Source: Monosporascus cannonballus (Eukaryota > Ascomycota > Sordariomycetes > Xylariales). Taken from it: 64,000 bases of DNA. Shown here in pieces: positions 9,616 through 57,333 of the stretch. The notes beneath the pieces are model-generated. The model was not told the origin of the DNA. It made no database searches and saw only the letters and a list, made by a program, of their open reading frames with translations. The DNA is taken from positions 62,001 through 126,000 of the forward strand of contig QJNS01000190.1 of assembly GCA_004154925.1 (NCBI GenBank), written 5' to 3'. Made by a program: the position numbers and the translations under genes. How positions within the stretch are numbered: position 1 is the first letter of the stretch; every line of letters starts with the position of its first letter.

Positions 9616-10005
9616 TGTGACGGCTAAGCGCTATAACCAACTATTAAATCTAAGTCGTACGGGTTTATGTTAGCAGGGATATCGTGGGATTCTGAGCAAT
9701 AAATATAGTAACTTATTACGTCTCGTAATATCAAGGGCGTTTTAGGTAACGAATTATTATTGCAAACTGAAATTATTTAAATTACGGCAATGAACGTATT
9801 TATATGTTATTATTTTGTATAATTAACTCTTTTTGTTTAATTGTGCTTAATTAAATAGTCTGCTTAATGATATTTAGCTAAGTAATCGTCCAGTTGTGAT
9901 TAGTTGATTTTTATTAAACAATTATTACGTAACTTAACTTATTTGGGCCTTACTTTAGTCGTAAGGCGACCGTTTCCAAAACCTGCGCCTAATCGAATTA
10001 TAATA
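9616..10005 (-). repeat. G1 LTR (left end of copy 1)
   Basis: Starts TGTGACGGCTAAGCG and contains the block shared by every G1 LTR in the window (..CGTACGGGTTTATGTTAGCAG.. and ..GTAACGAATTATTATTGCAA..). It ends at ATAATA, where other copies end ATGACA. The next bases, CGATT.., match the internal 3' end seen after the other left-hand G1 LTRs. It is the 3' LTR of a minus-strand element. No matching duplication of the preceding TATAA is found, because the other end of copy 1 is missing. Confidence 0.75.
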
Positions 10006-13748: not shown

Positions 13749-14122
13749 TATAACGGCTAAGCGGTTTGACCAACTATTAAACCTTAGTCGTACGGTTTTA
13801 TGTTAACAGAAATATCGTAGAAGTCTGAGCAATGAATACAGTAACGTATTACGTTTCGTAATACAAAGGCTATCTTGGGTAACGAATTGTTATTATAAGC
13901 TAAAGCTATTTACATTATGGGAAATAACGAACGTATATATCCATTTTAGGTTAATTGAATTTATAATGGATTTTAACGTTATTACAAATCCAATATTACT
14001 GGATTCGATTGGTTCTATATGGATTCACTTAGATCTTAACGCCAAAAAAGATCCAAATTACGTAACCCTTTTATGTAGGTCCCGATCGTTTTCCGCAACC
14101 GGTTTTAAGTTAGGTCGTAATA
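13749..14122 (-). repeat. G1 LTR, left end of copy 2
   Basis: Begins TATAACGGCTAAGCGG (TGTAAC with one G-to-A) and ends CGTAATA before CGATCTCC. It shares the first ~200 bp with all G1 LTRs. Its distal half, containing several GGAT/ATCC words, is unlike the LTR at 20675. Confidence 0.7.
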
Positions 14123-17800: not shown

Positions 17801-20640
17801 CGTTTGTTAATAATGGGTAAAACGAATTTTACCTAATTAATTTTTCCGTTAATTAAAACTTCATATTAGCGTATTCATGGTAATCCTAAGATCATATCGT
17901 AATTCCCAAATGGAACGATATCGAAATTAACCGTTTAATATCGTCCTTAAACAAAAATCTCGAAGTAATTAATTTCGCGTAAAATTTTCCCGTTATCGTA
18001 AACGAATTCCTAATTTTTCGCGTTCGTAACTATGTAAGGTTTTAACTTATATCTTTATAATAGTTTAAATTTATTAACGATATCCGGAATAATGTAATTT
18101 CCGCCTAACGTTTCGCAATCTATTATTACGTTATATTAATATGGTCGGATTCGTATTTTCAAAGTAATAAAATTATTAACGGCTTTTATCGTTGCGTTTA
18201 AAGCCCTTTTTTTAGGAATTTCTTTTAATTCTTTTAGGTTTTATTATTTTGCGGCTCTTTTACAGGTAACCTTTTTTAACTTTTTTTTAAGTTTGTCGAA
18301 CCTTATCTGTAATTCTTTATATAGCGCGTTAAGCTGCTGTATTTATCGTTCCTACCGGCGTATTATTTTTTCGAATCGTATTAATTATTCCTAATTTTAT
18401 TATAATTCCTTTTTCTACTGGATAAATTATTCCTTAATATGGTATATGGCTTCCTATTAAACCTTATCTTTTTCTTATTAAAAATTCGAATAAAAGGTTA
18501 AATTTCTTTTTTCAAGATTTATCGCTTATTAAAGTCTGTAATAAATACTAACTAAAAATGAAAATCCGTAATAACCTTTTAACAATATTTCTTTACGGTA
18601 CGCTGGATTAACTTTCTTTTCGTTTAGTAATTATATTATTTATAATAATAAAAAGGGTTTTCTTGCGGGCACCATTTTTCTTTAAGCTAATTTTCCGTTA
18701 CGGCCAGCGGAAAAAATTTATTTTCTAAGACTATCGATCGAAAATATCGATATTTTTATTCATCGTTCTTATTATTTCTCTTTTTGTTGTGAAAATCGAA
18801 TCCCTTATAATATATACGGGTAATTGTGCTATAAATATATCGTTTCCATTTTTCGTAATAAGAGCAGTTTTAACGTTAACAATGAATAACGTATTTTTTA
18901 CTATATTGGTTAAAGGTCCCAGAGTAAATTTTCTTTATCCAGCTCTAATATTCCTCTAGCTATCCTTTAAAGGCATTCTGTTATTCCTTAATTACTTATT
19001 AAGCCAAAATTGTAACGAACCTGTCATACATCCACCTGGAGGTATAAGCAGTATCCGAAAAGGGTCTTAATTTGCAAGTAACAATAGGGCGAGGAATAAT
19101 TCAATAATCTATTCGTTAAAAAGATTTAAAGACTCTTCCCTCAATTAGAGAACGATACAGTTGCCTCTTAATTAAGAGCTTAGGTTGATAACTAAGGAAC
19201 GAAACTAAGTAGGTGGCTATCTACATAAGAAACCTAAAGCTTTTATACCTCCTTCCATTCTACTGGTGTAACACTAATCTCTTGGATCTGTTAGATCACC
19301 CAGATCACAGTGATCTATGTAATCTAATAGATCAGTTAAATCACTCTAAGTCACGTAACTTAGAGTATGGAGCTTTCCCTCTTCTGCAGCCCTGGGGCCT
19401 CCAGAACGGGTCTACTCGGGGATCCGTAACAAAAATTCGGGTTTCTCGAATTCCTTGCTAAATTTGTCGTTACCGCGGTCTTACCAAATACTTAATTTAA
19501 ATTATATTAATATTTTTATCGTTTTTTGGTTATTTTTGAATTATTTTTTAATATAGGTTTTTAATTATTTTATTGTAATTTCTTGGGCGAAAAATACTTG
19601 TAAGCTTTATACCCTTTTTTTCGTAATTATAACACTTAATTTGGCTCCAGGCTTTATTATAAATGGCCTTAAGTTTTATAAGGCCTGGCTTAATACCATA
19701 AGAAATATTGCTACGCCGAAAAAAGTTAATATTAGTTATATATCGAAATTTGTTATTATTTTTTCCTTTAGTACTTTTAATATACCAAATATATTATTTC
19801 TCGTTAATTTTAACTGCCATAATAATATAATTTAATAAGTAATTAGGCCGATCGAACTTAAAAAGGTTTTTTATACTATTTTTTAGGTAATCAAAAAAAT
19901 TTAAACATTAATATTTTTTATTCCTAATTTGACTTAGATACTAGTTAAATAAACGTACTGCCATAACTAGATATTAGTCCTTTTTATAATAACTGCTAGA
20001 TTTATATTTGGGCTTTTATTTTTTCGTTTATTATTCCGAATACCTTTATTAATATTTATTCGAACTGCTTATAATTATTATAAATTTGTATAATTTCCGG
20101 ATTTTGTTTTGCCGGAAACAAAATAACATATTTTTTCATAACGGGCTTAAACCAAATAATTGCGTTTTCGGTAAATCGTTTAACCGCAAATTTCACGCAT
20201 ATAATAAACGTAATTAATTAAATAAGGAAATACCCAAAATATGTTCGGTATTAAATTAAAAACATTTATAATTTAATTAAAATTCCGTTAAAAGGTTTTG
20301 GCTTAAAAGATTTAAAGATTTTTTTTAAAGTTTTGGTAAGATTTAACTAAATAATCTGGCTTAATCGAAAAAACCTTTTTAATTTCGGAAGCTTTTTCTT
20401 ATTCTTTAATTTTCTTATAAGCAGCTTGGAAAAACATAATAAAATTATTCTTATCTTATTTAAATTAAAGGATACATTTGTTTATAATATCCAGTTATCG
20501 GAATACTTCTTTTCAAAAAACGCGAAACCGATCCTTTTTTTTTCTCAGATTTTATCCCGGTATTAAAATTCTTAAAAACTCGATAAATAGGCTATTCGTA
20601 TTATTTGCTAGTAAATATGATGTCGGCGATATTACTTAGA
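14780..20640 (-). pseudogene. G1 copy 2 gag-pol relic
   Basis: Reading leftward: gag (about 20640-18200), protease (to about 17600), RT (17500-16600), RNase H (16560-16170), integrase (core about 15480-15800) and chromodomain (14960-14800). The gag start aligned with the ATG at 56844 of copy 4 is ATA (20616-20618), so translation initiation is lost. The RT tetrad at 17005-17016 reads Tyr-Phe-Asn-Asn, both catalytic Asp lost. This is the most heavily mutated of the G1 copies. A solo LTR interrupts gag at 19011-19431. Confidence 0.65.
19011..19431 (-). mobile_element. solo G2 LTR with 5-bp target duplication
   Basis: A 421-bp sequence starting TGTAACGAACC and ending GGATCCGTAACA, the same length and ends as the two LTRs of the complete G2 element at 34749-42031. 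It is flanked on both sides by AAAAT (19006-19010 and 19432-19436), and the flanking G1 gag sequence joins up cleanly across it. It contains GATC words and a GCCCTGGGGCC segment. It is a typical product of LTR-LTR recombination after insertion. Confidence 0.9.
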
Positions 20641-20674: not shown

Positions 20675-21059
20675 TATAACGGTTAAACGGTTTAATAAAT
20701 TATTAAACTTAAGTCGTACGGGTTTATATTAATAGGAATATCGTAAAAATTTAAGTAATAAATATAATAACGTATTACGTTTCGTAATACTAAAAGCGTT
20801 TTAGGAAACGAATGAATATTATAAATTAAAGTTATTTAAATTTATAGAAATAATAAACCGTTATATATTATTAATTTGTTAATTACGTACTTTTATTTAA
20901 TGTTTTCCTACTAAGCGATTGCTTTGTATTATTTAACTAAACAATAATTAGTTTTTTTTACTTAGTAGATCACCACTGAGCACCTAGTTACGTGATCTTG
21001 TTGTCCGTGCCACCCCGGTCCGACCGTTTCTTGGACCTAAGGCTGGTTGGGTTATGACA
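20675..21059 (-). repeat. G1 LTR, right end of copy 2
   Basis: Begins TATAACGGTTAAACGG directly after the gag leader and ends GGGTTATGACA. It is the 5' LTR of the minus-strand element. Its first ~250 bp are RIP-mutated, while the last ~110 bp (from about 20950) are GC-normal. The following bases (TTTAAATAGCC) are RT sequence of another G1 copy. Confidence 0.7.
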
Positions 21060-23498
21060 TTTAAATAGCCTGTATTTCGTCCTGAAAGCTGTTTTCCATT
21101 TGTGTTCTTTTTTAATTCTGATAAGGTTATATCCATTTTTAAGATAGAAGGCTGTGAACTATTTGGCTCCATGGAATCGGTTTTTTATTTCAGTAATTAA
21201 AGGTAATCGTATTCGGTTTTTAACGGTGATGTCGTTTAATTCGCAATAGTTAACTATAAGTCGTAATTTGCTATTTTTTTGGCACGAAAAACATAGGATA
21301 TTTTGCGGGTAATTTCGAGGGTCGAATTTATCTTTTTTATAACCAATTTTCTAAATATTCTTTAAATATTTGCAATTTATTTCCGTTAAAGTTGTAAATG
21401 GAATAGAATTTCGTAAATAAACTTTTTTTAAAAACTATCTTATAATTTTATTCGTTCCGTTTTAATAATTTCGTATTAAGTCTTTTTTTGAAAAGCTGTG
21501 TGTATTTGTGATATTATGGTAATATATTAATTAAATCGTTTAACATTTGGAGGTATTGTTTTAAATCGTTATTTAATTACTTAAAATTTGGTTTGATGAT
21601 AATAACGATACGTTGTATTTTTGTTTAATGCTTATTCTTTTTTTTGTATCTTGTTTTTTTTCGGTAGTAAGGTGTTTTTCGTATTTTTATATCTGTACTT
21701 GTTGCCATTTTTGATTAAGTATTGAGATTTTAATTTTTCTTTTTTTTTCTTTATCGACGGAGTATAAAGCGAACTTTATCTAGCTAGTTCCTTTATGGAC
21801 TAAGGCCTTGTACTGGTGTATTTATAGTTTTTTTAAGATTATATTGTAATTTTTAATGAAACGATATCGAAATTATCTGTTTAATATCGTCCTTAAATAA
21901 AAATTTCGAGGTGATTAATTTTGCGTAAGATTTTTCCGTTACCGTAAATAAATTCCTAACTTTCGATATTTATAATTGTTTAAAGTTTTAACTTATATTT
22001 CTATGGTAACCTAAGTTTATTGATTATATTTGGTGTAATGTAATTCCCGCCTAGAGTTCCGTTGTTCATTATTGCGGTATACCAGCACGTTTTAATTTGT
22101 ATTTTTAAAGTAATAAGGTTATTAACGATTTTTATTATCGCGTTTAAGGCTCTTTTTGAAAGTTTTTTTTTTACTTTTTTAAGTCTTGTCGTTCTGCGGC
22201 TTTTTTACAGGCAATCTTTTTTTTAAATTGCTTTTCGAATTTGTTAAGTCGTTTTTGTATCCGCGTATATAACGCGTTAAACTGTTACATTTCTCGTTTT
22301 TGTCGTCGAATAGGTTTTTTAAATTATATTAGATATTTTTAATTTTATTATATCTTTTTACTTTATTTAGTAAACTGTTTTCTAATATAATATATAACAT
22401 CTTATTAAGTTTTTTATGATTTATTGTTTCTTAAATAAAGTTTTTAAGTAAACTGTCGAATTTTTTCTTTAAAAGCTTGTTTTTTTAAGGTCGGTTATGA
22501 AAGCTAATTAAAAGTAAAGGTCCGTAATGGCCTTCTGATAATGCTTTTTTACGGTATATTAGATTAACTTCTTTTTTGTCTGGTAGTTATACCATTTATA
22601 ATAGCAAAAAGGGTTTTTCTGCAGGCATTATTTTCCTTTTCGCCAGCTTTATAAAGCGGCTTATCATCGATATCATCTTATAATATAATGGTCCGAAAAT
22701 GTTAGTACCATTACTTATCGTTTTTGTTTTTTCGCGTTTAGTTGGGGAAATCCAATCCTTTTTGATACATACCCATAATTCGCTGATAAATTACTTTCTT
22801 CCATTTATTATGAAAGTGGCATTGCTGCCGTTTGCAATAGATAGCGTGCATTTTGCCGTGTTGCCCTGGCGTCCCAGGACAGACATCCTCTATCCACTCC
22901 TGATGTTCCTTCAACTATTCCTTCATGGCGTGTTATTGTCTTCCTGGCGCCTTCTGGGCTAGTTTCTTGGCTTTTCGCATTCCTTGTTGGATTTCTCGCC
23001 ATGGTGGGCCTGGTGCGTACTTGGCCTAGATCATGTTGATGGCCTGGCCGTCGTTCTTCTGGTTTTCTTTAGGCTGTCCTTCGGGGACTGGTTTCCATTT
23101 ATCTTGTCGTGGCTTCTTGGGTGTTTTGCACTTGTAGGCCTTGTGTCCTATCTTACCGCAGTTGAAGTACTGGATTTGGTTCCAATCTTTCCTCTGAACC
23201 GTTCCCAGATCTATAGGTCCTGGTGCTGTACCATACGAAGTATTGTTGTGTCGGGGGGCACTGGTATTGGTGCGGGGCTTGTTATTATATTTATTTTTGG
23301 TATTTCTGGTACGCCAGGCATACTGTCTGTTATCGATCTTGACGGCCATGGCGATGTAATCTAACAAGTATTCGGGCCGGTCCAGCTTGAAAAAGTTTCT
23401 TTTAAACATTTTTCTTTAAGCCATCGAAGAACTTGGCCATTAATGCCTTTTGTTCCTAGTTCAGCTTAAAAGCTATCTGGATAAGTATGCTGCCGTAG
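21060..23498 (-). mobile_element. G1 copy 3 fragment (RT, protease, gag)
   Basis: A piece of a minus-strand G1 internal region, beginning inside RT at the edge of the LTR at 21059 and ending in the N-terminal half of gag where the LTR of copy 4 starts (23499). It aligns with 17110-20590 of copy 2 and 54300-56190 of copy 4. Its gag part (22700-23490) is GC-rich and only lightly mutated, while its protease part is more damaged. Confidence 0.7.
23026..23409 (-). pseudogene. G1 copy 3 gag fragment with zinc knuckle
   Basis: A 127-codon open stretch on the minus strand with a basic, Asn- and Pro-rich segment followed by a nucleocapsid-type zinc knuckle at 23128-23169. The knuckle reads YFNCGKIGHKAYKC; the first position of the Cys-x2-Cys-x4-His-x4-Cys pattern is Tyr (TAC), one transition from Cys. 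Downstream it is Lys/Pro/Gln-rich. In intact elements this domain binds element RNA during packaging. It is the best-preserved gag segment of G1 in the window. Confidence 0.8.
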
Positions 23499-23897
23499 TG
23501 TAACGGCTAGGCGGTTTAACCAACTATTAAACCTTAGTCGTACGGGTTTATGTTGGCAGGAGTATCGTGGGAATCTGAGCAATGGACACAGTAATCGTGT
23601 CACGTCTCGTAATACCAAGGGTATCTTAGGTAACGAATTATTATTGCAAGCTGGTGTTATCTAGATTATGGAAATAACGAATGTTTTTATACTTATCCCA
23701 AATTACCTCGTTTTACCTGGATTATTACAATTTTGCAAAATCCTAATGATTTTGTTTTTCGTGGATTTCGCAAGATCTTAATAATCCTGTTTTTCGTGGA
23801 TTTCGTAAGATCCTAATGATCCTGTTACGTAACTTCCCCCTTATGCTCCATTTGTTTTGACTGTTTCTGGATATGTTAAGTACGTTAGGTTATGATA
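23499..23897 (-). repeat. G1 copy 4, 3' LTR
   Basis: A 399-bp LTR starting TGTAACGGCTAGGCGG and ending GGTTATGATA. The shared G1 5' block is intact; the second half carries about 2.8 units of a 35-bp repeat. It is one repeat unit shorter than its partner at 56901. Confidence 0.8.
23728..23824. repeat. 35-bp tandem repeat inside LTR, about 2.8 units
   Basis: Units of the type tttcgcaagatcttaataat..cctgtttttcgtgg repeat head to tail. The partner LTR at 56901 has about 3.8 units of the same repeat. Confidence 0.8.
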
Positions 23898-30666: not shown

Positions 30667-31375
30667 ATAATAGGTCGTATCCAAAAAGAAAAAAGAAAAC
30701 CCCGGTTGAATTAATGCGGTTTCCGCGATATTTATATTAATTTAATTAAAAATTTGGTATTAAGGCTTTTTCTTATTCGAATTGTGTCCGATTTAACGAA
30801 ACCAATTTTTTTATTACGAAATATTTAAATTATAATTGTTATATCCGTCGGTAACGTTTTTTTATAACGTTTTAATCATAAATTTGCTGCAAAAAATAAA
30901 CGAAACGCAAAACCGTTTATTGCCCGAATAACGTAAAACCGAAAATAGCTTTTTGTTATACTAAGAAGTTGCAAAAAAAAAATAAAAGGCAGTAAAAAAA
31001 AGGTTAGCCGAATTATGCCGTTAGTAAAACGAAAAATCGAAGGAATTTGTTTAAAAATTAAGGCGTTTACGCCTTTAATAAAGCTTTTTTAAAAAAAGGG
31101 CCGTAAAATTATTAAAAGAAATTTGAATTTAAATTAATTAAAAAAACGGGAAAGAATGAAAAAAAGCGGCGCTACGTAGACGTGAAGCAAGTACAGTTTA
31201 TATCTAAGATGGACGTTATTTTAAAGGCGTTTATTTTTTTAACTGGAACGCCGAAAGTTTGGATTTAAATAAGGGACCGTTATCGCCCGTAACTTTAGCC
31301 GTATTAAAAACGGTCGGTTAGGATTTTGTCGGTAAAATGTTTTAATTAAGTCTATCGTATACGTTAAATTATTAA
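30667..31375 (+). pseudogene. opposite-strand accessory ORF of G2, outer copy
   Basis: Aligned with the inner copy at 35265-35930. The start codon reads ATA. A segment equivalent to the first half of the cysteine cluster (FSYSNCVRF) and one equivalent to the second (CYIRR) are visible, but in a different frame from the start. The span is 709 bp against 666 in the inner copy, so frameshifts or small insertions are present. The C-terminal block AESLDL and the following conserved segment are recognisable. It is more degraded than the inner copy. Confidence 0.5.
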
Positions 31376-34300: not shown

Positions 34301-34748
34301 ATATAGCAAACTTTTTGGTTATTTTTTAAGTAATTTGTTTTTTTATAAAAGTATTTAATATCATTAATTAATATATGCATTACTGGACCTGAATTATGAT
34401 ATTCTCAAAATAATGTCGTACCTAAAAATATCTGCAATATTTAACGAAATCCGTTTTTAATATCTTTAAATCCGTATTAAAAGTATTTTAATTTTTCGAA
34501 AAGTTCGTCCGTTTTCGTACGTAAATAGATTTTCGTACATTATACGTAATTTATAAAACCTTAATTTATATTTTTAAGAAATCTTATGTTTTTTTATTAT
34601 TATGAAAAAGATAAAAATTTTTGGAGTTTTTAAGTTAATTATAGCTTTAAACGTTTTGTCTTTATATCGAAAAAAATGTTTATTTAATTGTATAATTTTT
34701 TAAATACCTTATATAAGGTTTTATATGTTGGGGTTTTTCGATACTTTA
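31270..34748 (-). pseudogene. G2a pol relic
   Basis: Minus-strand pol of the outer G2 copy from protease/RT (right) to chromodomain (left), aligned with 35842-39100 of the inner copy and considerably more AT-rich. The RT tetrad at 33662-33673 reads Tyr-Phe-Asp-Asn, losing the second Asp. The inner G2 is inserted at 34749, near the protease-gag boundary. Confidence 0.7.
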
Positions 34749-35169
34749 TGTAACGAACCTGTTATACATCCACCTGGAGGTATGAGCAGTATCCGAAAAG
34801 GGTCTTAATTTGCAGGTAACAATAGGGCGAGGAATAATTTAATGATCTGTTTGTTAAAAAGATTTAAAGATTTTTCCCTTAATTAGAGAACGATGTAATT
34901 ACCTTTTGATTAAGAGCTTAGGTTAATAGCTAAGGAACGAAATTAAGTAGGTGGTTATTTACATAAAAAACTTAAAGTTTTTATACCTTTTTCCATTTTG
35001 CTGGTATAACATTGATTTTTTAAATTTGTTAGATTATCCAGATTACAGTAATCTATATAATTTAATAAATCAGTTAGATTATTTTAAATTACGTGACTTA
35101 AAGTGTGAAGCTTTCCTTTTTTTGCAGCCCTGGGGCTTTTAAAACGGGTTTACTCGGGGATCTGTAATA
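34749..35169 (-). repeat. G2b 3' LTR
   Basis: 421 bp, from TGTAACGAACC to CTGTAATA (CA end changed to TA). It keeps the CAGCCCTGGGGC segment near its right end. Confidence 0.92.
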
Positions 35170-35172
35170 TTA

Positions 35173-35185
35173 TTCTCCTTTTTTC
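35173..35185 (-). promoter_or_regulatory. polypurine tract of G2b
   Basis: On the element strand this reads GAAAAAAGGAGAA, three bases from the 3' LTR edge. It marks the plus-strand priming site and confirms that gag-pol is on the minus strand. Confidence 0.75.
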
Positions 35186-35264
35186 AAGATCTTTATCCTA
35201 AAGATAAAAAGGTAAGCACTTTTTTTTTCTAATTGAAAATTATTTTTCTTATTGCCAACTTACT

Positions 35265-35930
35265 ATGGCAGGTCAAGCAGAAAAATTAACGCGTTAATCC
35301 CGTGCGAATTAGCGTTAAACTTGCAATAATCGGTTTGCTTACATTTTCAAGTTTGGGTTCGAGGTGTTACCTTATTCCAATTGTTTTTTATTCGGGGAAT
35401 TTAAGTATTTCATAACGGAAAACATTTTAAGCTGTTATTATTGTACCCGTCGTTAACGTTATTATGACGGATTAACAATTATTATGTTTTTATTAAAGAA
35501 TATCGGTTTTGAACGCGACCGCCTTTAAAGGGAACGTCGTGCTACTAAAGATAAACTTATGGAATTGCAGCGAAAATTTCAAAAGAAGATATTAAAAAGA
35601 ATAAACAAATTATAACGTTTGCGTCGCCAGGAAGACTTTTTAAAGGAAAAAAGGTTATAGCTACTTTTTAAGGGTTACGAATTAAACTAATTAAAGGAGC
35701 GGAAAAGGATGGAAAAAAAACGACGTCGTGTGGAAACGGAATAAACGTAACTTATTTTAAAAATAAACGCCATAATAAAGGCGTTTACTTTTTTCGACTG
35801 GAACGCTGAAAGTTTGGATTTAAAAGGGGGGCCTTTATCGTTTACGACCTTAGCTGCGCTGGAGACGGTCGGTTAGGATTTTGGCGGTGGAACGTTTTAA
35901 CCAGGTCTATCGCATTCGTTAAGTGGTTAA
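35265..35930 (+). pseudogene. opposite-strand accessory ORF of G2, best copy
   Basis: From ATG 35265 to TAA 35930 there are 221 codons in one frame with no frameshift. The 12 internal stops are all TAA or TAG and never TGA, which fits CAA/CAG-to-TAA/TAG mutation of a real reading frame. The N-terminus is basic. Cys or Tyr fall at the spacing x2, x7, x8, x2, x6 (segments LPYSNCFLFGEFKY and SCYYCTRR), close to the G1 version. A long Lys/Arg/Glu/Leu-rich region follows (FQKKILKRINKL, RRQEDFLKEKR, LKERKRMEKKRRR), probably a coiled coil. The C-terminus has DWNAESLDLKGGPLS, also seen in the outer copy. It overlaps the end of pol (stop 35842-35844) by 89 bp tail-to-tail. Role unknown: a nuclear DNA-binding or RNA-binding helper protein is possible. 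Confidence 0.8.
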
Positions 35931-38900
35931 ATGGTTCCTAAGTATTTTTTTATGTAAATATCCTTCTTATTTAATTAGGTACTGAACTTTGTTTTTGACT
36001 ATTTTGGAGTCCAGTATTCGTTTAATTTCGTATTTGTCGGAATCCTTTTTAAGTTCTAGGTCTGTTTCTAACGGGGCGTTTTTAGGTATTGGTTCAAGTA
36101 AAGAAATGTGGAAAATAGGGTATATTTTCATGTTTTTGGGTAACGATAATCGGTAGTTGGTTTTGGAAACGACTTTTTTAACCTTAAACGGGCCAAATTT
36201 CTTAAAGTCGAGTTTGTCGCTAGGTTTTTTCGTTTTAATCTGTAAAATGTTCGAAATTACGTTTTATTTTTGGCGTAACAAATAAACTTTGTTTTTCTTC
36301 GTTAAAATTGGTCCTTTAATTCTTTTTTTATTATAATATTAAGTTATCCGTTATTAAAAGAATTACAATTCGTTTTGGAAATGGGCTTGGATTGTTTTAA
36401 TTTTTGTTATTAATATTTTTGCTTTTAAAGTAATTATAGCAATTTTTGGTGCCTTATTAAACGGTTATTTAGGTCGTTTTATCTTTGTATTATGCCCGTA
36501 TATAGCTATATAAAGAGATATGCTTATATTTTCGTTAACAGATGTATTATAAGCGATTTGTGCCAGTAATAAAAGCTTTACTTAATTATTCTATTAATAA
36601 TTAACGTAACTTCGGAGATATTATTTTAAGGTTTAGTTCAGTTTTTCGGTTTGGCCGTCCGTTTAGGGATAATAAGCTGTTGAAAATTTAAATTTAGCAC
36701 CGATTTATTTAAAAAAGCTGGTACCGAATTTCGAAGTAAACAACGTATTTTTGTCAGAAATAATCTTTTTTGGTATCCCGTATTTATCGAAGCAATACCT
36801 GATAAAGGCGTAGGCTAACTATTTTGCCGTTACGTTTCCTTTAAAAGGCAGAAAATACCTATATTTGGTAAATTTATTAATAATTACCTATATTCCGTCG
36901 TATTCGACTTTAGTAACTGGGTTTTTTGATAAAGGTAAACTAGTAATAAAGTTCTAAGTTATAGTATTCTATATTTTATTAGGAATGTTAATGGGTTATA
37001 GTAGCCTATAGGGCTTATGGCGTAATACCTTCGCCTTGTTATAAACGTTATAATCCTTAATTATTTTTTTAACTATATGTCGTAACTTTGGGAAGTTGTA
37101 TTTTTCTTGTAGTTGTTAAATGGTTTTAAAAATTCCTTAATATTTATACAACGGGTTCTCGTAAAATTCTTTTATAAACCGTTTTTGTTAATCTTTTGGA
37201 ACATAAATTTTGCCATGGTATAATAATTAGTTTTTTGGTTATTCCTTTAGCTGCTAAATCTTTTTTTGTTCCTTTTCGTTATAGGAATTCCGAAACCGTA
37301 TTAGGAGTTCGGGAAATGGTTTTTTTAAGATTTCGCATAACTATATTATGCCATCTTGGTTATACTGTAATATTTACATGCTTTTTTTGGGAATTTTAAA
37401 GTCGTAATCGCTTTTACGATTAAGAATATCCGCCTGGATGTTTTTTTTTCTTTTGATATGATATATTTTGAAGTTAAATTTTAATAGAAAAATTATCCAA
37501 GTTTTATGTCGTTTTTTCAGTTTTTATGCTTTTATAAATCGGGTAAAGTTTTTGTGGTTAAAGTAAATATTAAAGGGTTTTTTCGTTCCGTTAAAGAAAA
37601 GTTCTTATTTCTTAAAAGCGTTAATAATTGCCAATAATTCTTTATCGTAAATTAAGTATTTAAATTTTGTATTTCGGAATGCTTTTAAATAATATGCCAT
37701 TAGGTATTATTTGCCGTTATCCTTTAATTATTTTAGGACGGTACTTAATGTATAATCTGAAATATCCGTTTTTAGTCGTTTTTTTTTATTTGCGTTAAAT
37801 AATTTTATTATAGGTCCGTTAATAATTATATCCTTTAAAATCTGGAATACTTTTTTTACTTTTTCTAAAAGTTCGAACTTTTTTCTTACGTACTTTTTGG
37901 TAATAAGTCTCGTCAATAATCTGATTATATCTCCGTATCCTTTAATTAGGCCGCGTACGTAACCCGTAAATCTTAAGATTTATCGGATGTTGGTAACGGT
38001 CGCCTTATTAAAGATAAGCCAGTCCTTAACTGCTTTTATCTTAAAGCGTTAAATCTAAATTTGGCCGGAGGTGAAAATATATTTTAAAAAGTTTAGTTTC
38101 TGCGTATATTATACATTTTTGGCGGGGTTAATTCGGATATTTGTTTCGTTTAACGTTTGGAGCACTTGGGTAATTTGTTTTTTGTGCTTTTCCAAAGTTT
38201 CGGAATAAATAAGAATATCGTCGAGGTAAACAAATATAAACTTATCCAAAAATTTTTTAAGCGTAATTATAATTAGGCGTTAAAAGCTGGCGGGAATATT
38301 AGTAAATTCTATAAGCATTATTTTGTATTCGTAAAGTCTATATATTATTCTAAATACCGTTTTCCATTTTTCTCTTTTGGCCATTTCAATACGGTAATAA
38401 CTGTTTCGAAAATCAAATGCAATAAATTATTTAACTTTATTAACGTTTTCTTTTAACGTATTTATAAAGGTTAAAAAATATCCATTTTTAATCGTGATAT
38501 TATTTAACTATCGGTAATCGATTATTTTTTTGAAAACCAGGTTTCCGTTTTCGTTAATCTTTTGCTTTTTATCTTTAGTTTTTGGTACTATAAAAACAGG
38601 ATATCCCGCAGGAGAATTAAAGGGTTAAATATATTTTTTTTTCAAGTTAAGCCGAATATTTTTTTACAAAGCCCTTAATTTATTAAGGTTTATATAATAA
38701 ATTTTATAAAGTTTAAGATGGTATCCTTCCTTAATAGGTATCTTATAGTCCCATTAACCATATGGCGGTAGTTTATGATTTTCTTCATCTTTAAACAATT
38801 TCTTAAATCGTCGATACTCAGGTGGTATCGTAAAGGCTTGATTTGTAACTTGGATTTCCTTAATAACATAACAAATTTTTTGGTCGTTTTTTTCGGGTGG

Positions 38901-39350
38901 TTTTCGTTTTTGTTCCCATAAGAATGTTTGGTTTTTCCAATTAATATGTAAATTGCTGGATCTGAACCACGGCATTCCCAAAATAATGTCGTACTTAGAA
39001 ATGTCGGTAATGTCCAGCGAAATCCGTTTTTGGTATCCTTGAATTTGTATTGGAAATTTTTTAGTTTTTCGTAGAATTCGTCCGTTTTCGTATATGGATA
39101 AATTTCCGTTTACTATACGTAATTTGTAGGACTTTAACTTATATTTCTAAGAAATCTGATATTTTTCTGTTATTAAAAGGGAAATAAAATTTCTTTCGGT
39201 TCCTAAGTCGATTATGGCTTTAAACGTTTTGCCTTTATATCGAAAAAGAATCTTTATTTGATTACGTAATCCTTTTATTACTTTACATAAGGTTTTGTAT
39301 ATTAAGGCTTTTCGATACCTTATTTTCGAAGGCTTTTATCGTTTTTTAAC
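35842..39350 (-). pseudogene. G2b pol (protease, RT, RNase H, integrase, chromodomain)
   Basis: Reading leftward: the protease-RT linker at 38754-38981 has GMPWFRSSNLHINWKNQTF and PPEYRRFKKLFK. The RT tetrad Tyr-Leu-Asp-Asp is intact at 38217-38228. The RT/RNase H junction lies at 37728-37916 (PIIKLFNANKKKR, TDISDYTLS). In integrase (about 36340-37190) the first catalytic Asp, in the segment before KFTKYRYF, reads Asn. The chromodomain lies near 35950-36070; the Trp after YLIK is a stop (TAA). Stops are mostly TAA/TAG. Although one active site survives, the polyprotein cannot be made. Confidence 0.82.
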
Positions 39351-39399
39351 TGGTATGGTTTTGCGAAAAGGCGTTTCTATTCCCGAGTTTTCTTGGCTG

Positions 39400-41560
39400 C
39401 ATACTTAGTACAGTGGTCGTCTATGTACTTATACCATTTCTTTCTGCCCAACTGGCATCCGAAAGTAACCATTTTTTTCTGGCTTATCCCTTGGTTTTAT
39501 ATTTTTTAAATCGTAAGGTCGGAAAAGTATATTTCCGAAAGAGGTATTCCTATATTTAGAAGTTCGTATTGAATATAAAGCGTTAAGGCATAATATAAAT
39601 ATCTTTGCAATATGGCCTTTTAACTCTGTTTTGAATTGGGATATAAGTAATAAAATTTGGGGTATTTTAACCATTAAGGGTTTTTTGTGCATTTATACTT
39701 GTTATCAGGTTCGGTAAATATCTTCTCGTTTTATCCAGGCCAAAAATTATTGTTTTTTTTAGCTTTAAAATAAACGAAATAATCGTCGAGGTAATAAGCA
39801 ATAAAATGCAACGAATTGTGATAATTTATTTGGGGTTTCTTGATATGCATTAAGCATTCGGGAAGCTTACAAAACTTTAGGGATAATTATTTATAATTAT
39901 TAACGTCGGGTCGGAACTAATCGTTTTCGTCGTGCATCTCATATTAAGATAAATCGAGATAGCAGCGGCATCTTAACTTTATAATTATCTTAAAGGCCGT
40001 TTGTCCTAGGTAATATTTATAGGCTTTAACCTTAAAATTCTGGCAAACTGGATAATTTTTGTATTTTGGGATATCACTTTAAATCTGAATAATTATGGTA
40101 ATAATAAATTCTGGCTAGGAAGAAGTTAAATTAATTTCTTTTTCCTTTTTTTCTGCCTTACTGTTAATTTTTTATTCAATTATTTTAACTTTTTTCTGGG
40201 GTTAAGGAATTCCTTCTTTTTTGGAGTTCCTTTTAGCAGGAAAGCAATATTCGCTTTTGAAATATCCCTTTTTGCCACAGTTAAAACATTTTACGTTAAA
40301 CTTATCCTTTTTGGGTTTTTTCGAAACGGCATTCGCTTTTTTCTAAGGCTTGCCCTTATCTTTCTTGTTTCGGCTATTAAGGCCTTTATCGTTACTTCGC
40401 TTATTAATCTTTTTCTTCTCGAAATATCGGTCGAAAATGCGCCGGTCGGCAATAATAACCTTATTGGTATATTCCGGGAAAAATCCAATCTTAGGTACTT
40501 TATACATTTCATCCTTAATTAAAAGCTTTAGGCCATCGTAATAAAAATAAAATAACGCATTTTTTAACAAATTGGAAATAGCAGCAAAGCGGTTAAATTC
40601 CGTCGTATATTCGGCGGCTAACTTAATTTACTGAAAAAGATGTAACTGCTTAACAACATCTTATTTTTTATCAGGGTTTCCGAATAAAGTTCGTATCCGT
40701 TTTTCGAAATAGTCGTATTTACTGAAAATATAATTAGTTATATCCGAAAAATTATCCGGGTAATTCTTTAAGTAATCTTTTATAATAAACTCGAACTACA
40801 AAAGGATTTTCCCGATAAATAACTAAAAAATAACTATCACCTTTTAATAATTTTTAATCAAAGAATTATCGTAAAACTTAAGGTAAAGCCTGGCCTAAAC
40901 CAGGAATCCTTTTGGGTCCTTAGATTTATCATAGGGCTTGGGGGGATTCGGCTTGTAGCCCTTAACGTTTGGCATTCCATAGTAAATAGGCAGTGGTATG
41001 GTTCTTTCGCGAATCTGGTTTGCTCCGAACAGTGGTAAAGTTAAAATTCCTTCTGGAATTTATCCTATTTCGATCGAAGGTGGTCGAAAATTACTTCCTT
41101 AATTTTATTCTTTAGGGGAGCCAAACTGAAACAAAGTCGTTTTTTTTCCTTTGGCGAATTGAATATTCTCTTACTCTAAACTTTAAACCTTTTGGGCCAA
41201 GAAGTCCAATCTTTTTTCCGTAATAAGTTTTTTTTCTTTTCCCTTTAGAACCTCGGTTCTATATTTTTCCTTAACCCCTTTTTTAATTACCTTCTTTTCC
41301 GACTCCTTTCCCTGGACTTCGATAATGTCCTTAGGGGTCGGGATAAATTACTATCTGGGCTACGAGAATAATCCTCCCTAAGATCGAATAATAAAAGGTA
41401 CCATGTTATTAATTAATTGAAAAATTTCTTTAATAAGGGGTAAATTATCTAATCTAGTTATTAATCCTTTACTAACTAATAATAAAGATCGGATATGCTA
41501 TTTATTTTCTAAACGTCGTCCTATAATATCATTTTTATTAAATTCAGGAAAGCTTATATC
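39400..41560 (-). pseudogene. G2b gag with degenerate zinc knuckle
   Basis: The minus-strand gag starts near 41400, just downstream of the 5' LTR and a short leader. A long Lys/Arg- and Glu-rich region leads to a CCHC knuckle (about 40244-40288) reading CFNCGKKGYFKSEYC: the His reads Tyr and the fourth Cys position reads Tyr, with a Cys one place later that was probably Arg. Upstream there is KKKINKRSNDKGLNSR. Beyond the knuckle are Lys/Glu-rich sequence and the protease. Gag forms the particle and its knuckle binds RNA. Confidence 0.75.
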
Positions 41561-41610
41561 CAACTGGGCCTTAAATTATTCGTCGGCTATTAATTAAGGA
41601 ACTATCAAAA

Positions 41611-42031
41611 TATAACAAACCTGTTATATATCTACCTGGAGGTATAAGCAGTATCCGAAAAAGGTTTTAATTTGCAAGTAATAATAAGGCGAGGAATAAT
41701 TTAATAATCTATTCGTTAAAAAGATTTAAAGATTTTTCCCTTAATTAAAAAACGATGCAATTACCTCTTAATTAAAAGCTTAAGTTTATAACTAAGGAGC
41801 AAAACTAAGTAGGTAATTATTTACATAAAAAACCTAAAACTTTTATACCTCCTTCCATTCTGCTGGTATAACATTAATCTTTTAGATTTGTTAAATTACC
41901 TAGATCACAGTGATCTATGTGATCTAATAGATCAGTTAAATTACTTTAAGTCACGTGACTTAAAGTGTGGAGCTTTCCCTCTTCTGCAGCCCTGGGGCCT
42001 CCAGAACGGGTCTACTCGGGGATCCGTAACA
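41611..42031 (-). repeat. G2b 5' LTR
   Basis: 421 bp starting TATAACAAACC (TGTAACGAACC with two changes) and ending GGATCCGTAACA. The first 280 bp are RIP-mutated and the last 140 are nearly clean. It contains GATCACAGTGATC and CTTTAAGTCACGTGACTT, both palindromic. Confidence 0.92.
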
Positions 42032-44303
42032 CTTTATTTTCAAAGGCCTTTATCGTTTTTTAATTAATATGTTTTACTTACGCAAAAGCATTTTAATTTT
42101 TGAGCTTTTTTAATTACGTACTTAGTATAATAATTATTTATATATTTATACTATTTTTTTGCCCGATTAATATCTAAAAATAATTATTTTTTTAATTTAA
42201 TTTTTGGTTTTATATTTTTTAAGTTATAAGATCAGAAAAGTGCATTTTCGAAAAATGTATTTCTATATTTAGGAGTTCGTATTAAATATAAAGTGTTAAA
42301 ACGTAACATAAGTATTTTTGCGATATAGCTTTTCGATTCCATTTTAAATTAGGATATAAATAATAAGATTTGAGATATTTTGGTTATCGGGGGGTTTCTG
42401 TATATTTGTATTCGTTATTTGGTTCGGGAAGTATTTTTTTATTTTATTTAGGCCAAAAGTTATTATTTTTTTTAGCTTTAAAATAAACAAAATAGTCGTT
42501 ACGGTAATAAGCGGTAAAATGCAATAAATTATAAGGATTAGCTTTGGTATATACTCAGTATTTAAAGAATTTACAAAGTTTTAAAAATAATTATCTATAA
42601 TTATTAACGTTGGGTTGGAATTAACCGTCCTTGTTGTATATTTTATATTAAGATAATTCGAAATAATAACGGTATTTTAGCGCTATAGTTATTTTGGAAA
42701 CCGTTTATCTTAAATAATATTTACAGGCTTTTATTTTAAAATCTTAGCAAATTAAATAATTTTCGCATTTTAAGATGTTGTTCTTGGTTTGAATAATTAT
42801 GGCAATAGTGAATTCTGGCTGGGGAAAAACGAATTAATTTTTCTTTTCTTTTTTTACCTTATTATTAATTTTTCACTTAATTATCCTAACTTTTCTTGGG
42901 GTTAAAGAATTCCTCCTTTTTTAAAGTCCTTTTTTGCAGAGGATCGATATTCGCTTTTAAAATACCCCTTTTTGCCATAGTTAAAATATTTTACTTTAGA
43001 TTTGTTTTTTTTTAGACTTTTTCGAAGCGGCATTTGTTTCCTTTTAAGGTTTACCTTTATCTTTCTTAGTTTGGCTATTGGAACCCTTATTATCGCCTTA
43101 CTTGTCGGTTCTTTTTTTTTCTAAGTACCGATTAAAGGTATATCGGTTAATAATAAGAACCTTATTTATATATTTCGCAAAAAATCCCATTTTAAATTTT
43201 ATATATAATTCGTTTTTAACTTAAAGTTTTAGGCCGTTATAATAAAGATAAAATAATATATTTTTTTGATAAATTGAAAATAATTGCCAAATAATTAAAC
43301 TTAATTATATATTCGAATATTAATTTAGTTTAACGAAAAAAATGGAATTGCTTAATTATATATTATTTCTTATCCGGAATTTCAAATAGGGTTAATTTTT
43401 TTTTCGAACTATTTATATTTGCTAAAAATATAATTGGTTATATCCGAAGATTTTTGGGGGTAATTTTGCAAATAGTTTTTTATAATATTTTCGAATTATA
43501 AAAAGGTTTTTCCAGTAAATAATTAGGAAATAGCTATTATTTTTTGGTAAATTTCCGATCAAAAACTTTTATAAAACTTAAGGTAAAATTTGACTTATAC
43601 TAGAAATTTTTGTATATTCGTAAATTTATTATAAGGCTTAAAAAACTTAATTTATAATTTTTGACGTTTAGTATTTTATAATAATTAAGTAATGGAATAT
43701 CTTTTTTTATAATTAATTTACGCCAAATAATAGCAGAATTAAATTTTTTTTTATTATGGTTATTCCGTATCGAATAAAGGCGGTTAAAAACCACTTTTTT
43801 AATTTCGTCCTTTAAGGAAGCCGATTTGCGAAAAAATCAGTTTTTTTTCCTTAAGCGAATCGAACATTTTTTCGTTTTAAACTTTGAATTTTCTAAGCTA
43901 AAAAATCTAATTTTTCTTTCGTAATAAGTTTCTTTTTCCTTTAAAACTTCGGTTTTATATTTTTCTTTAGCTTTTGTTTCATTATTTTCTTTTCCTATTT
44001 CTTTTTTTGGATTTCGATGGTATTTTTATGAGTTAAGGTAAATTATTATTTAAATTTCAAAAATAACCTTTTTAAAATAGGATAATAAATGGTGTTATAT
44101 TATTTATTAATTGTAACGTTTTTTTAATAAATAATAAATCGTTTAATCTGGTTATTAATCCTTTACCGGCTAATAACAGGAATTAAATATATTATTTATT
44201 TTTAAACGTTATTTTATAATATTATTTTTATTAAGTTTAAAAAGATTTATATTTAATCAGGCTTTAAATTTTTCGTTAGTTATTAATTAAAGAATTATTA
44301 AAA
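42032..44303 (-). pseudogene. G2a gag relic, 5' part of the outer copy
   Basis: Continuation of the outer G2 after the inner copy, aligned with 39340-41610. The knuckle near 42944-42988 has the first two Cys, the His and the last Cys all reading Tyr. Heavily AT-rich. It ends directly at the LTR at 44304. Confidence 0.72.
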
Positions 44304-46687: not shown

Positions 46688-48480
46688 ATGGAAAGTAACG
46701 TAATAATTACCAAAAGCAAAGTTTGCCGATTATAAAACGAATTTAGGTTATTAGTCGAAAAGACCGCCGATTGGAACTTAACCGACGAATGATTGATTAC
46801 GGTACGGAAATAGGCGAAAAAGCTTATAACGGAGCCTTAATAAGCAAAGGATTATGGTTTCCGGGATTTTGAATCCTTTTATATATATAATAGGGATGCG
46901 TCCCGATAACCGTTAATTAAACGGTCGGAAAACGGGCGTAATATGTTAGGACCTAACGATCTTGGCTTCTTACGGACGGTCGGAACCACAAAAGGATCAA
47001 GTTCCGACCCAAGCCAAGGCGTCACGTAACTGGCTCAAAGGTTTTAAAGCGCCAAGCGCCTTGAGCCCCTTGAGTCGGCAGAAAAGCTCAAAGGGCTCAA
47101 GGGACTTAAGGGTTTAAGCCGCTTAAGCACCTTGAGCCAAGACAAGGATATATACGCTCGTTATTTCCATAGTCTAGATAGCTTCAGCTTGTAATGGAAT
47201 ATCGTTATCCAAAACGCCCCTGGTATTACGAGACGTAATACGTTATTACATCCATTGCTCAGAATCCCACGATACTCCTGCCAACATAAACCCGTCGACT
47301 TAGGTTTAATAGTTGGTTAAACCGCCAAGCCGTCACATAATATAACGAATGCGTCCCGGAATTTAAAGTAAAAAAGGGTTAAGTTTTTTTTAATAATAAT
47401 TAGATTTTGAAGATTATTTGTTACTAAAATAAATGATATTCGAAATTATTCCGATAATTAGCTAAATAATAAGTAATGGTATAAGTTAAAAAAACAAAGT
47501 TTTATAAGTTAATTACAATATCGTCGTAAAAGCTTAAGAGCGATAAGCGAATATCGTATTATAATTGCCCGAAATTTTCCGAATACGCATTAATTAAAAA
47601 AAAGAAAATTAAATAAAAATTATTATAGAAATTTACGTTAAAACACCAGGGCGAAATGCTTTTATTTATATCTAATAGGCTATAAGTTATATAAACGTTT
47701 TGATTACGAATATTTAACGATTATACCGTATTATATTTAATTATTTTAATTACGAACGAAAATTAAAAATAGAATATTTATAGATTTTTATTAGAAAAAG
47801 TTATATAAATCTTAATGGTTTCAATAGGGAATATAGGGAATAATTTATAGAATTACGATAATAATCCGATTAATTATTATTGCATTTTTACATTAAATAA
47901 AGAGTTTTAGTTTATAAAATAAAATATACGGACGTTTTTAACCCGGAAAATAATTAAGATAATAACCGTTTTGTTTTTAATTACTTTTATAAATTAATAT
48001 TAAGGTTACGAAATATTTTATTACGAAAAAACGTTAAGTTAAAATAAGTTAATAACGTAATAAATAAGGTAAAACGTTATTAGAACGTTTGGAAAATAAT
48101 AAAAGAAAACCGATTATTTTCCGCCAAAGGTATTAATAAAGATAAACCATTTTATTTTAATGTTTTCGAAAAAAGAAATTTTTAGAACAAATTAAAGGCG
48201 ATATATAGAAATAATAAGGATTACGAGCGTTTTTATATTCGGAAGGTAGATAATTGCCGATTTAATTCCGATTAAAATAAGTCCGTACGATTTAATATCT
48301 TTAACTTTTATAAGGGCTTATTTAAATGTTATAATTGTAAGAAGCTAAATTATCAAAACGTAAATTGCAAATTTAAAAGGGATACGAAAACCTTGTTATC
48401 CCGGCTATATGGAAATAGATTTCCAAAGGCCGTATAAAATGTCATAATATATAACGATAAATTAGATTAATTCTTAGACG
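46688..48480 (+). pseudogene. G4 gag with solo LTR insertion and mutated zinc knuckle
   Basis: The ATG at 46688 opens a frame beginning MESNVIITKSKVCRL, continuing with TAA/TAG/TGA stops. The frame is resumed exactly across the solo LTR (46944-47337) once one TAATA copy is removed. The knuckle at 48327-48368 reads CYNCKKLNYQNVNC, with Tyr in place of His. The rest is basic and Asn-rich after mutation. Gag forms the particle. Confidence 0.78.
46944..47337 (+). mobile_element. solo G1 LTR, inverted, nearly unmutated
   Basis: A 394-bp G1-type LTR in the orientation opposite to all other G1 copies (its left edge on the plus strand is TGTTAGGACC, its right edge CCGTCACA). The exact target duplication TAATA lies at 46939-46943 and 47338-47342. 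It is GC-normal with a distinctive series of CTCAAGG/CCTTGAG words, while the G4 gag around it is very AT-rich. It therefore inserted, and lost its internal part, after the RIP wave that hit G4, or escaped it as a short sequence. Confidence 0.92.
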
Positions 48481-56900: not shown

Positions 56901-57333
56901 TATAACGGCTAAATAATTTAACCAATTATTAAACCTAAGTCGTACGGGTTTATGTTAACAGGAATATCGTAGGATTTTAAATAATAAATATAATAACGTA
57001 TTACGTTTCGTAATACCAATGGCGTTTTGGGTAACGAATTATTATTATAAACTAATGCTATCTAAATTATGGAAATAACGAATGTTTTTATACTTATTCC
57101 AAATTACCTCGTCTTACCTGGATTATTGTAATTTCGCAAAATCCCAATAATCCTATCTCTCGTGGATCTCGCAAGATCCCAATAATCCTGTCTTTCGTAA
57201 ATCTCGCAAAATCCCAATAATCCTGTCTTTCGTAAATCTCGCAAAATCCCAATAATCCTGTCACGTGACTTTCCCCTTGTGCTCCACTTGTTTTGACTGT
57301 TTCTGGATATGCCAAGCACGTTGGGTCATGACA
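56901..57333 (-). repeat. G1 copy 4, 5' LTR
   Basis: 433 bp, TATAACGGCTAAATAA to GGGTCATGACA. Partner of 23499-23897, with one more 35-bp repeat unit. The last 200 bp are nearly free of RIP changes. Confidence 0.82.
57130..57263. repeat. 35-bp tandem repeat inside LTR, about 3.8 units
   Basis: Head-to-tail units containing tctcgcaaaatcccaataat and cctgtctttcgtaa. The unit count differs by one from the partner LTR and accounts for the 34-bp length difference. Confidence 0.85.

Follow-up and report, generated by a model that had tools for sequence, protein, structure and literature searches.

A predicted zinc-cluster gene antisense to pol in a Ty3/gypsy element of Monosporascus cannonballus, with a deeply divergent 5' half on a nearly uniform pol

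Antisense open reading frames (ORFs) without an assigned function have been described in long terminal repeat (LTR) retrotransposons (PMC7264820, PMC11963269; these and the other reports cited here are quoted from the sections available). The fungal example, brtn of Boty, lies between pol and the 3' LTR (PMC7264820, PMC8365987), and the gag-pol of Boty-like elements of Botrytis cinerea includes a CHROMO domain (PMC4227169). In plants, gene23 of Grande and the TRP28 ORFs of Retand are antisense genes of the same pol-3' LTR interval (PMC7264820, PMC11963269); DNA binding has been predicted and a regulatory role proposed for the latter, and HBZ of HTLV-1 has been named beside such ORFs (PMC11963269). 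In this study, we report an antisense accessory gene in a 7.3-kb Ty3/gypsy element (34749-42031) of the fungus Monosporascus cannonballus, located in a window of 64,000 nucleotides (GCA_004154925.1, contig QJNS01000190.1, positions 62,001 to 126,000; all coordinates below are those of the window). The Zn2Cys6-like identity of the gene and the deep divergence of its codons 1-135 on nearly the same pol are new.

The pol domains of the element are on the minus strand, which makes the left LTR the 3' one and places the plus-strand frame antisense, between pol and that LTR. This is the layout of brtn in a fungal gypsy element. The available parts of the literature on Boty (PMC8365987, PMC7264820, PMC4227169) do not mention a zinc cluster, and no Botrytis name appeared among the database relatives of the antisense protein. 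Should the two genes prove homologous, brtn would gain a likely function from these results. Retand, Grande and RIRE2 of plants are alike in having an antisense gene in this interval whose product is predicted to be DNA-binding or nuclear (PMC11963269, PMC7264820). They differ in the TRP28 domain, found in flowering plants only, in the non-chromovirus lineage of Retand, and in the length of the region between pol and the 3' LTR, which is 2.9-6.6 kb in Retand and about 0.6 kb here. The preliminary description of this locus, made from the window alone, considered such a gene unusual. Its position is not, given the fungal and plant gypsy elements mentioned (PMC7264820, PMC8365987), while its Zn2Cys6-like identity is new, and no report of a zinc-cluster antisense gene in a retrotransposon was found in the literature searched.

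As first described, the frame extends through 221 codons from an ATG to a stop with no frameshift, and its 12 internal stops include no TGA; nine are TAA and three TAG, the closing stop is TAA, and the ATG lies 95 bases off the edge of the 3' LTR. The absence of TGA had been taken as a sign of a gene. A single copy says little on this point, as TGA is also missing from two further frames of the five others in the window copy, while over many copies the argument holds. A protein search of the 88.8-Mb assembly (618 contigs), in which 150 of 1149 candidates were scored, found at least 163 matching places at E≤1e-3, with identities down to 41% among the matches listed. The copy counts for stops, constraint, cysteine cluster and pol stop rest on 44 of 50 loci and lean towards in-frame copies, because six loci that were partial, frameshifted or different at the N-terminus (L080, L081, L082, L085, L086, and L087) were dropped; loci L009-L038 were left out, and L001-L008 were used solely in a stop-codon count. 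In these 44 copies, the in-frame stops were 289 TAA, 102 TAG and 2 TGA (TAA or TAG in 391 of 393), and in the alignment TGA accounted for 0.9% of the stops of the antisense frame vs. 3.7-15.7% in the other five frames.

The window copy differs from 29 close copies by 3982 transitions and 170 transversions, and this excess, together with stops of the kind produced from CAA and CAG, characterizes a repeat altered by repeat-induced point mutation (RIP). Of the 348 cells that the 29 close copies contribute to the columns of the 12 window stops, 102 held CAA or CAG and 228 a stop; at 11 of the 12 columns at least one copy retained CAA or CAG. RIP is not known to produce transversions, and those present therefore record older evolution. 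Over codons 1-175 of the 44 copies, sites polymorphic between purine and pyrimidine numbered 49, 29, and 68 of 175 at codon positions 1, 2, and 3, respectively (chi-square p=2e-5), and the bias was found both in codons 76-175 (p=3e-4) and in codons 1-75 (p=0.03). Thus the two findings on which the preliminary description had made its gene depend, namely codon-position constraint among copies and glutamine codons in place of the stops in other copies (at 11 of the 12 columns), were both obtained, and together with the annotated relatives in other fungi they leave us practically certain that this is a real, codon-constrained accessory gene of a gypsy element. That the frame could instead be an accident of antisense composition, or of pol constraint on the other strand, would agree with the missing TGA of a single copy and with the overlap of codons 174-222 with pol. 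Nevertheless, it is extremely improbable: a chance frame is ruled out by the codon-position constraint and the stop types over copies, among which the antisense frame has the lowest TGA share; pol reaches codons 174-222 only, whereas the constraint was measured in codons 1-175, nearly all outside the overlap; and annotated proteins of other genera have the same cysteine cluster, RLxRLR-type motif and DW motif.

The end of the gene requires a separate comment. Its C-terminus, which had been noted as conserved, is largely dual-coded: the last part of the minus-strand pol resembles a chromodomain and continues into a tail (FHRQNP...) before its stop, so that both genes overlap tail to tail over 146 bp. 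The conservation is real, and much of it is explained by this overlap, which takes in codons 174-222; the antisense protein cannot be assumed to be its only source. The pol stop is read as TAA or TAG in 40 of the 44 copies; a single copy shows CAA there, so the pol stop could itself be a product of mutation. The overlap also brings in another reading, in which the antisense RNA has the role, convergent transcription generating double-stranded RNA (dsRNA) that silences or tunes the element while the protein is of minor importance. Regulation by dsRNA has been proposed for antisense ORFs (PMC7264820). Such a role does not need coding constraint, yet codon positions 1 and 2 vary less than position 3 and 41 of 51 database matches preserve the cysteine spacing, which makes this reading very unlikely.

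The protein has a recognizable family. One database search returned six matches and another 51, the query itself included; the nearest proteins were from Monosporascus species, and others are annotated as hypothetical proteins in other fungal genera, three of them named Zn(2)-C6 by a source. The cysteine cluster and the two motifs mentioned above are common to the relatives. The full Gal4-type Zn2Cys6 spacing (CX2CX6CX5-12CX2CX6-8C) was present in the 41 matches already indicated; most of the remaining 10 miss the N-terminus, and P0037 and P0056 carry Tyr for a Cys. It was also present in all members of a set of 33 of the 51 matches, a set picked for completeness from which 18 short, partial or near-duplicate proteins were left out. 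The six-cysteine pattern and the basic, coiled-coil-like region noticed at first are both present in the window subfamily. The six positions (codons 37, 40, 48, 57, 60, and 67) are occupied by Cys or Tyr in all 44 copies and by six cysteines in four, and these four all have a first loop of X7, which departs from the standard Zn2Cys6 spacing. In 11 of the 33 relatives (P0007, P0010, P0012-P0014, P0016, P0017, P0019, P0023, P0044, and P0046) an insertion of about 15-20 residues was observed behind the cluster; an intron of the antisense gene left unspliced is its most likely source.

With respect to profile searches, Zn2Cys6 (PF00172) gave no score above the curated Pfam cut-off (best printed score, 18.1 bits vs. 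21), although Zn_clus was the commonest Pfam match in the set of 33 (21 members at E≤1, best E 0.001); one member of the 33 matched WAV3_C (E 9.7e-5). Nothing passed the cut-off when the window protein and five of its own copies were scanned against Pfam, the best PDB sequence matches had E values of 0.23 (profile of the 33) and 0.73 (window protein), and 10 pattern matches in viral contigs included no relatives. In structure models of the relatives, a long helix stands behind the cysteine cluster. For the second, cleaner model, 11 of 12 Foldseek rows and all 11 listed VIA-align rows were zinc-cluster structures as judged from their titles (two of which we take to be such proteins), each match being weak, and its superposition on 1pyi, 2er8 and 1cld gave an rmsd of 1.4-1.6 over 33-36 residues. 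The metal-cluster-like domain proposed at the outset is thus supported by the cysteine spacing of the relatives, the Zn_clus matches and the models, and the protein is probably a Gal4-like zinc cluster with a long coiled coil behind it, a predicted and fairly supported fold that would bind metal.

In comparison with the Gal4-type domains of Put3, Hap1, Ppr1, Gal4 and Leu3, the cysteine spacing of most relatives, the predicted cluster fold and the helix behind the cluster are similar. The differences are that nothing beyond a short tail follows the helix, that its matches fall below the Pfam cut-off, that the window subfamily has the X7 first loop, and that the basic residues of loop 1, which in Gal4-type domains take part in DNA contact, are mostly absent. 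HBZ offers an analogy of working rather than of descent: it is a coiled-coil nuclear regulator encoded by an antisense gene next to a 3' LTR, but a bZIP protein instead of a zinc cluster, and unrelated.

In attention to these features, the antisense protein probably binds DNA as a dimer through its cluster and coiled coil. The chances that the target is the element's own LTR appear to us evenly balanced; it would be the most likely site. Bound there, the protein would tune transcription of the element as an activator or a repressor, and the promoter of the antisense gene may lie within the 3' LTR or close to it. The best explanation that we can offer, which we favor with some reserve, is a Gal4-like regulator that is encoded by the element and acts on the LTR of that element. 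A real element gene whose protein acts elsewhere, in nuclear import, target-site choice, RNA packaging or the countering of host silencing, is a less probable alternative. The missing loop-1 residues would fit it, as would the reported nuclear location of the Grande gene23 product in a source that leaves the roles of antisense ORFs undetermined (PMC7264820), whereas the cluster with its adjacent long helix resembles the layout of a Gal4-type DNA-binding module and the gene adjoins the 3' LTR. The LTR-directed regulator has the merit of being concrete: a zinc-cluster and coiled-coil protein recognizable in several fungal genera, where it is already annotated, gives a testable function, that of an element-encoded transcription factor.

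The comparison of whole elements revealed that they are mosaics. Between the window element and five distant ones (L089-L092 and L094), transversions per site ranged over 0.14-0.29 for U3, 0.23-0.28 for the leader and 0.20-0.33 for codons 1-135, in contrast to 0.00-0.06 for pol and 0.00-0.01 for the R-U5 part of the LTR. A sixth element, L093, was intermediate; its homology to pol stops after about 1 kb, and neither the third-position comparison nor the final Mantel set includes it. Transversions at third positions were 0.172 in codons 1-135 vs. 0.048 in pol for the 10 pairs among those five elements, and 0.294 vs. 0.043 for the five pairs that include the window element. Divergence in the 5' half of this gene is several times older than in the adjoining pol, both genes being constrained. 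Codons 1-135 are an exchangeable half, like a cassette, on a nearly uniform pol backbone, and recombination is the simplest cause of this mosaic.

The order LTR, leader, gene and pol recurs in all six loci whose longer flanks were read, in one of them with pol homology over the first kilobase only. This recurrence bears on the idea of a single capture of a host zinc-cluster gene, with the element copies as passengers and the apparent constraint reflecting host selection on domesticated relatives. The annotation of the relatives as ordinary hypothetical proteins, three with the Zn(2)-C6 name, would be expected in that case. However, the constraint was measured among element copies of one genome, including pairs within the group of ten elements here called B, and with the conserved order this makes the capture highly unlikely.

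Whether U3 travels with the cluster half was addressed by Mantel correlations. Over 13 elements, U3 correlated with the cluster half (r 0.88, p 0.001) and hardly with pol (r 0.27, p 0.11). Within the B group the relation was r 0.14 (p 0.16) with the cluster half and r 0.65 (p 0.03) with pol, and the cluster half correlated with the coiled-coil half (r 0.74, p 0.0002). U3 differs along with codons 1-135 only across the deepest split. Since the correlation is lost inside the B group, a matched promoter-factor unit of U3 and cluster half is no more than suggested. A candidate binding array of clustered GATCTG/CAGATC is present in less mutated U3s: L090 has 6 GATC in 99 bases vs. 0.41 expected from base shuffling, in a stretch chosen around an array that was spotted first and counted afterwards. 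Two or more GATC were present in 9 of 23 rows and none in 10, the window among the latter, and CGG/CCG triplets in U3 formed no clear pairs by eye.

The mosaic boundaries, one from R to U3 and one near codon 136, would fit possible sites of strand transfer during reverse transcription between two packaged RNAs. Synthesis might jump to the 3' end of the second RNA, copy its U3 and the 5' half of its antisense gene, and switch back near codon 136, so that R-U5 and pol would be kept and the promoter and the DNA-binding half replaced together. The broader proposal, that U3 and an antisense gene for a self-specific Gal4-like factor form one control cassette swapped in this way between fungal Ty3/gypsy elements with the same pol, is speculative and in our judgment rather unlikely. 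If true, the elements would fall into regulatory groups, like the immunity groups of phages, with every factor recognizing the U3 that belongs to it, for instance through the GATCTG/CAGATC array; the mosaic layout makes both self-regulation and specificity testable with LTR reporters. Locus L097, considered as the same cassette on a different pol, was dropped as its flanks proved to be other repeats, and the 253-pair correlations that still include it were not used. One unrelated repeat flanking L097, of about 180-220 bp, occurs also in the window at 9616-9791, 13753-13940, 20679-20873, 23498-23677, 47123-47344, and 56917-57099.

The features of the host element are given in Table 1. Its two LTRs are 86% identical, 60 of their 61 differences being transitions. 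Protease, reverse transcriptase (RT), RNase H, integrase zinc-binding and SH3_Tf2-1 domains exceeded the Pfam cut-off on the minus strand, and the order protease, RT, RNase H and integrase, together with the LTRs and a 5-bp duplication, is that of Ty3/gypsy. The rve core scored below the cut-off, as did Chromo (17.7 bits vs. 25.1), a match cut by the end of the piece at a point where the frame changes; in the window copy the pol frame shifts near the chromodomain, while the antisense frame is free of indels. No Pfam gag domain was found in the three minus-strand frames at 39600-41600, where gag is expected.

Table 1. Coordinates of the antisense gene, its host element and the second gene copy in the window.
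Feature	Position	Strand	Remarks
Antisense accessory gene, RIP-type mutated copy	35265..35930	+	221 codons, 12 internal stops
Six-position cysteine cluster	35373..35465	+	CX2CX7CX8CX2CX6C; here 3 C, 3 Y
Basic region, counterpart of the long coiled-coil-like helix modeled in relatives	35502..35759	+	limits approximate
Codons 1-135, deeply divergent half between elements with nearly the same pol	35265..35669	+	
Tail-to-tail overlap, antisense codons 174-222 with pol 3' end	35785..35930		146 bp; pol stop 35787-35785 (-)
3' LTR (left)	34749-35169	-	~34749-34900 taken as R-U5 side, ~34900-35169 as U3 side
5' LTR (right)	41611-42031	-	
Target site duplication, left	34744..34748		CTTTA, 5 bp
Target site duplication, right	42032..42036		CTTTA, 5 bp
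Purine-rich tract, polypurine-tract-like, adjoining 3' LTR	35170..35184	-	from sequence
pol	35785..39221	-	RVP_2 ~39221-38922, RT ~38522-38085, RNase H ~37790-37476
pol, further domains		-	integrase zinc binding ~37202-37029, SH3_Tf2-1 ~36239-36090, chromo-like from ~36032
Second antisense-gene copy, outer element	30667..31372	+	frameshifted, other cassette type

The element is nested in an older one of the same family (30146 to about 44722), and this outer element carries the second copy of the gene. Between the inner and the outer element, pol and the R-U5 part of the LTR can be aligned, in contrast to most of U3. At 19007-19431 there is a solo LTR of the inner-element type, with 85-89% identity to the two LTRs of the inner element. 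Finally, a minus-strand open frame of 127 aa (23026-23409) showed a weak match to a CCHC zinc knuckle (17.3 bits vs. a cut-off of 20.8) and is perhaps a gag remnant; a plus-strand frame of 126 aa (22984-23364) overlaps it.
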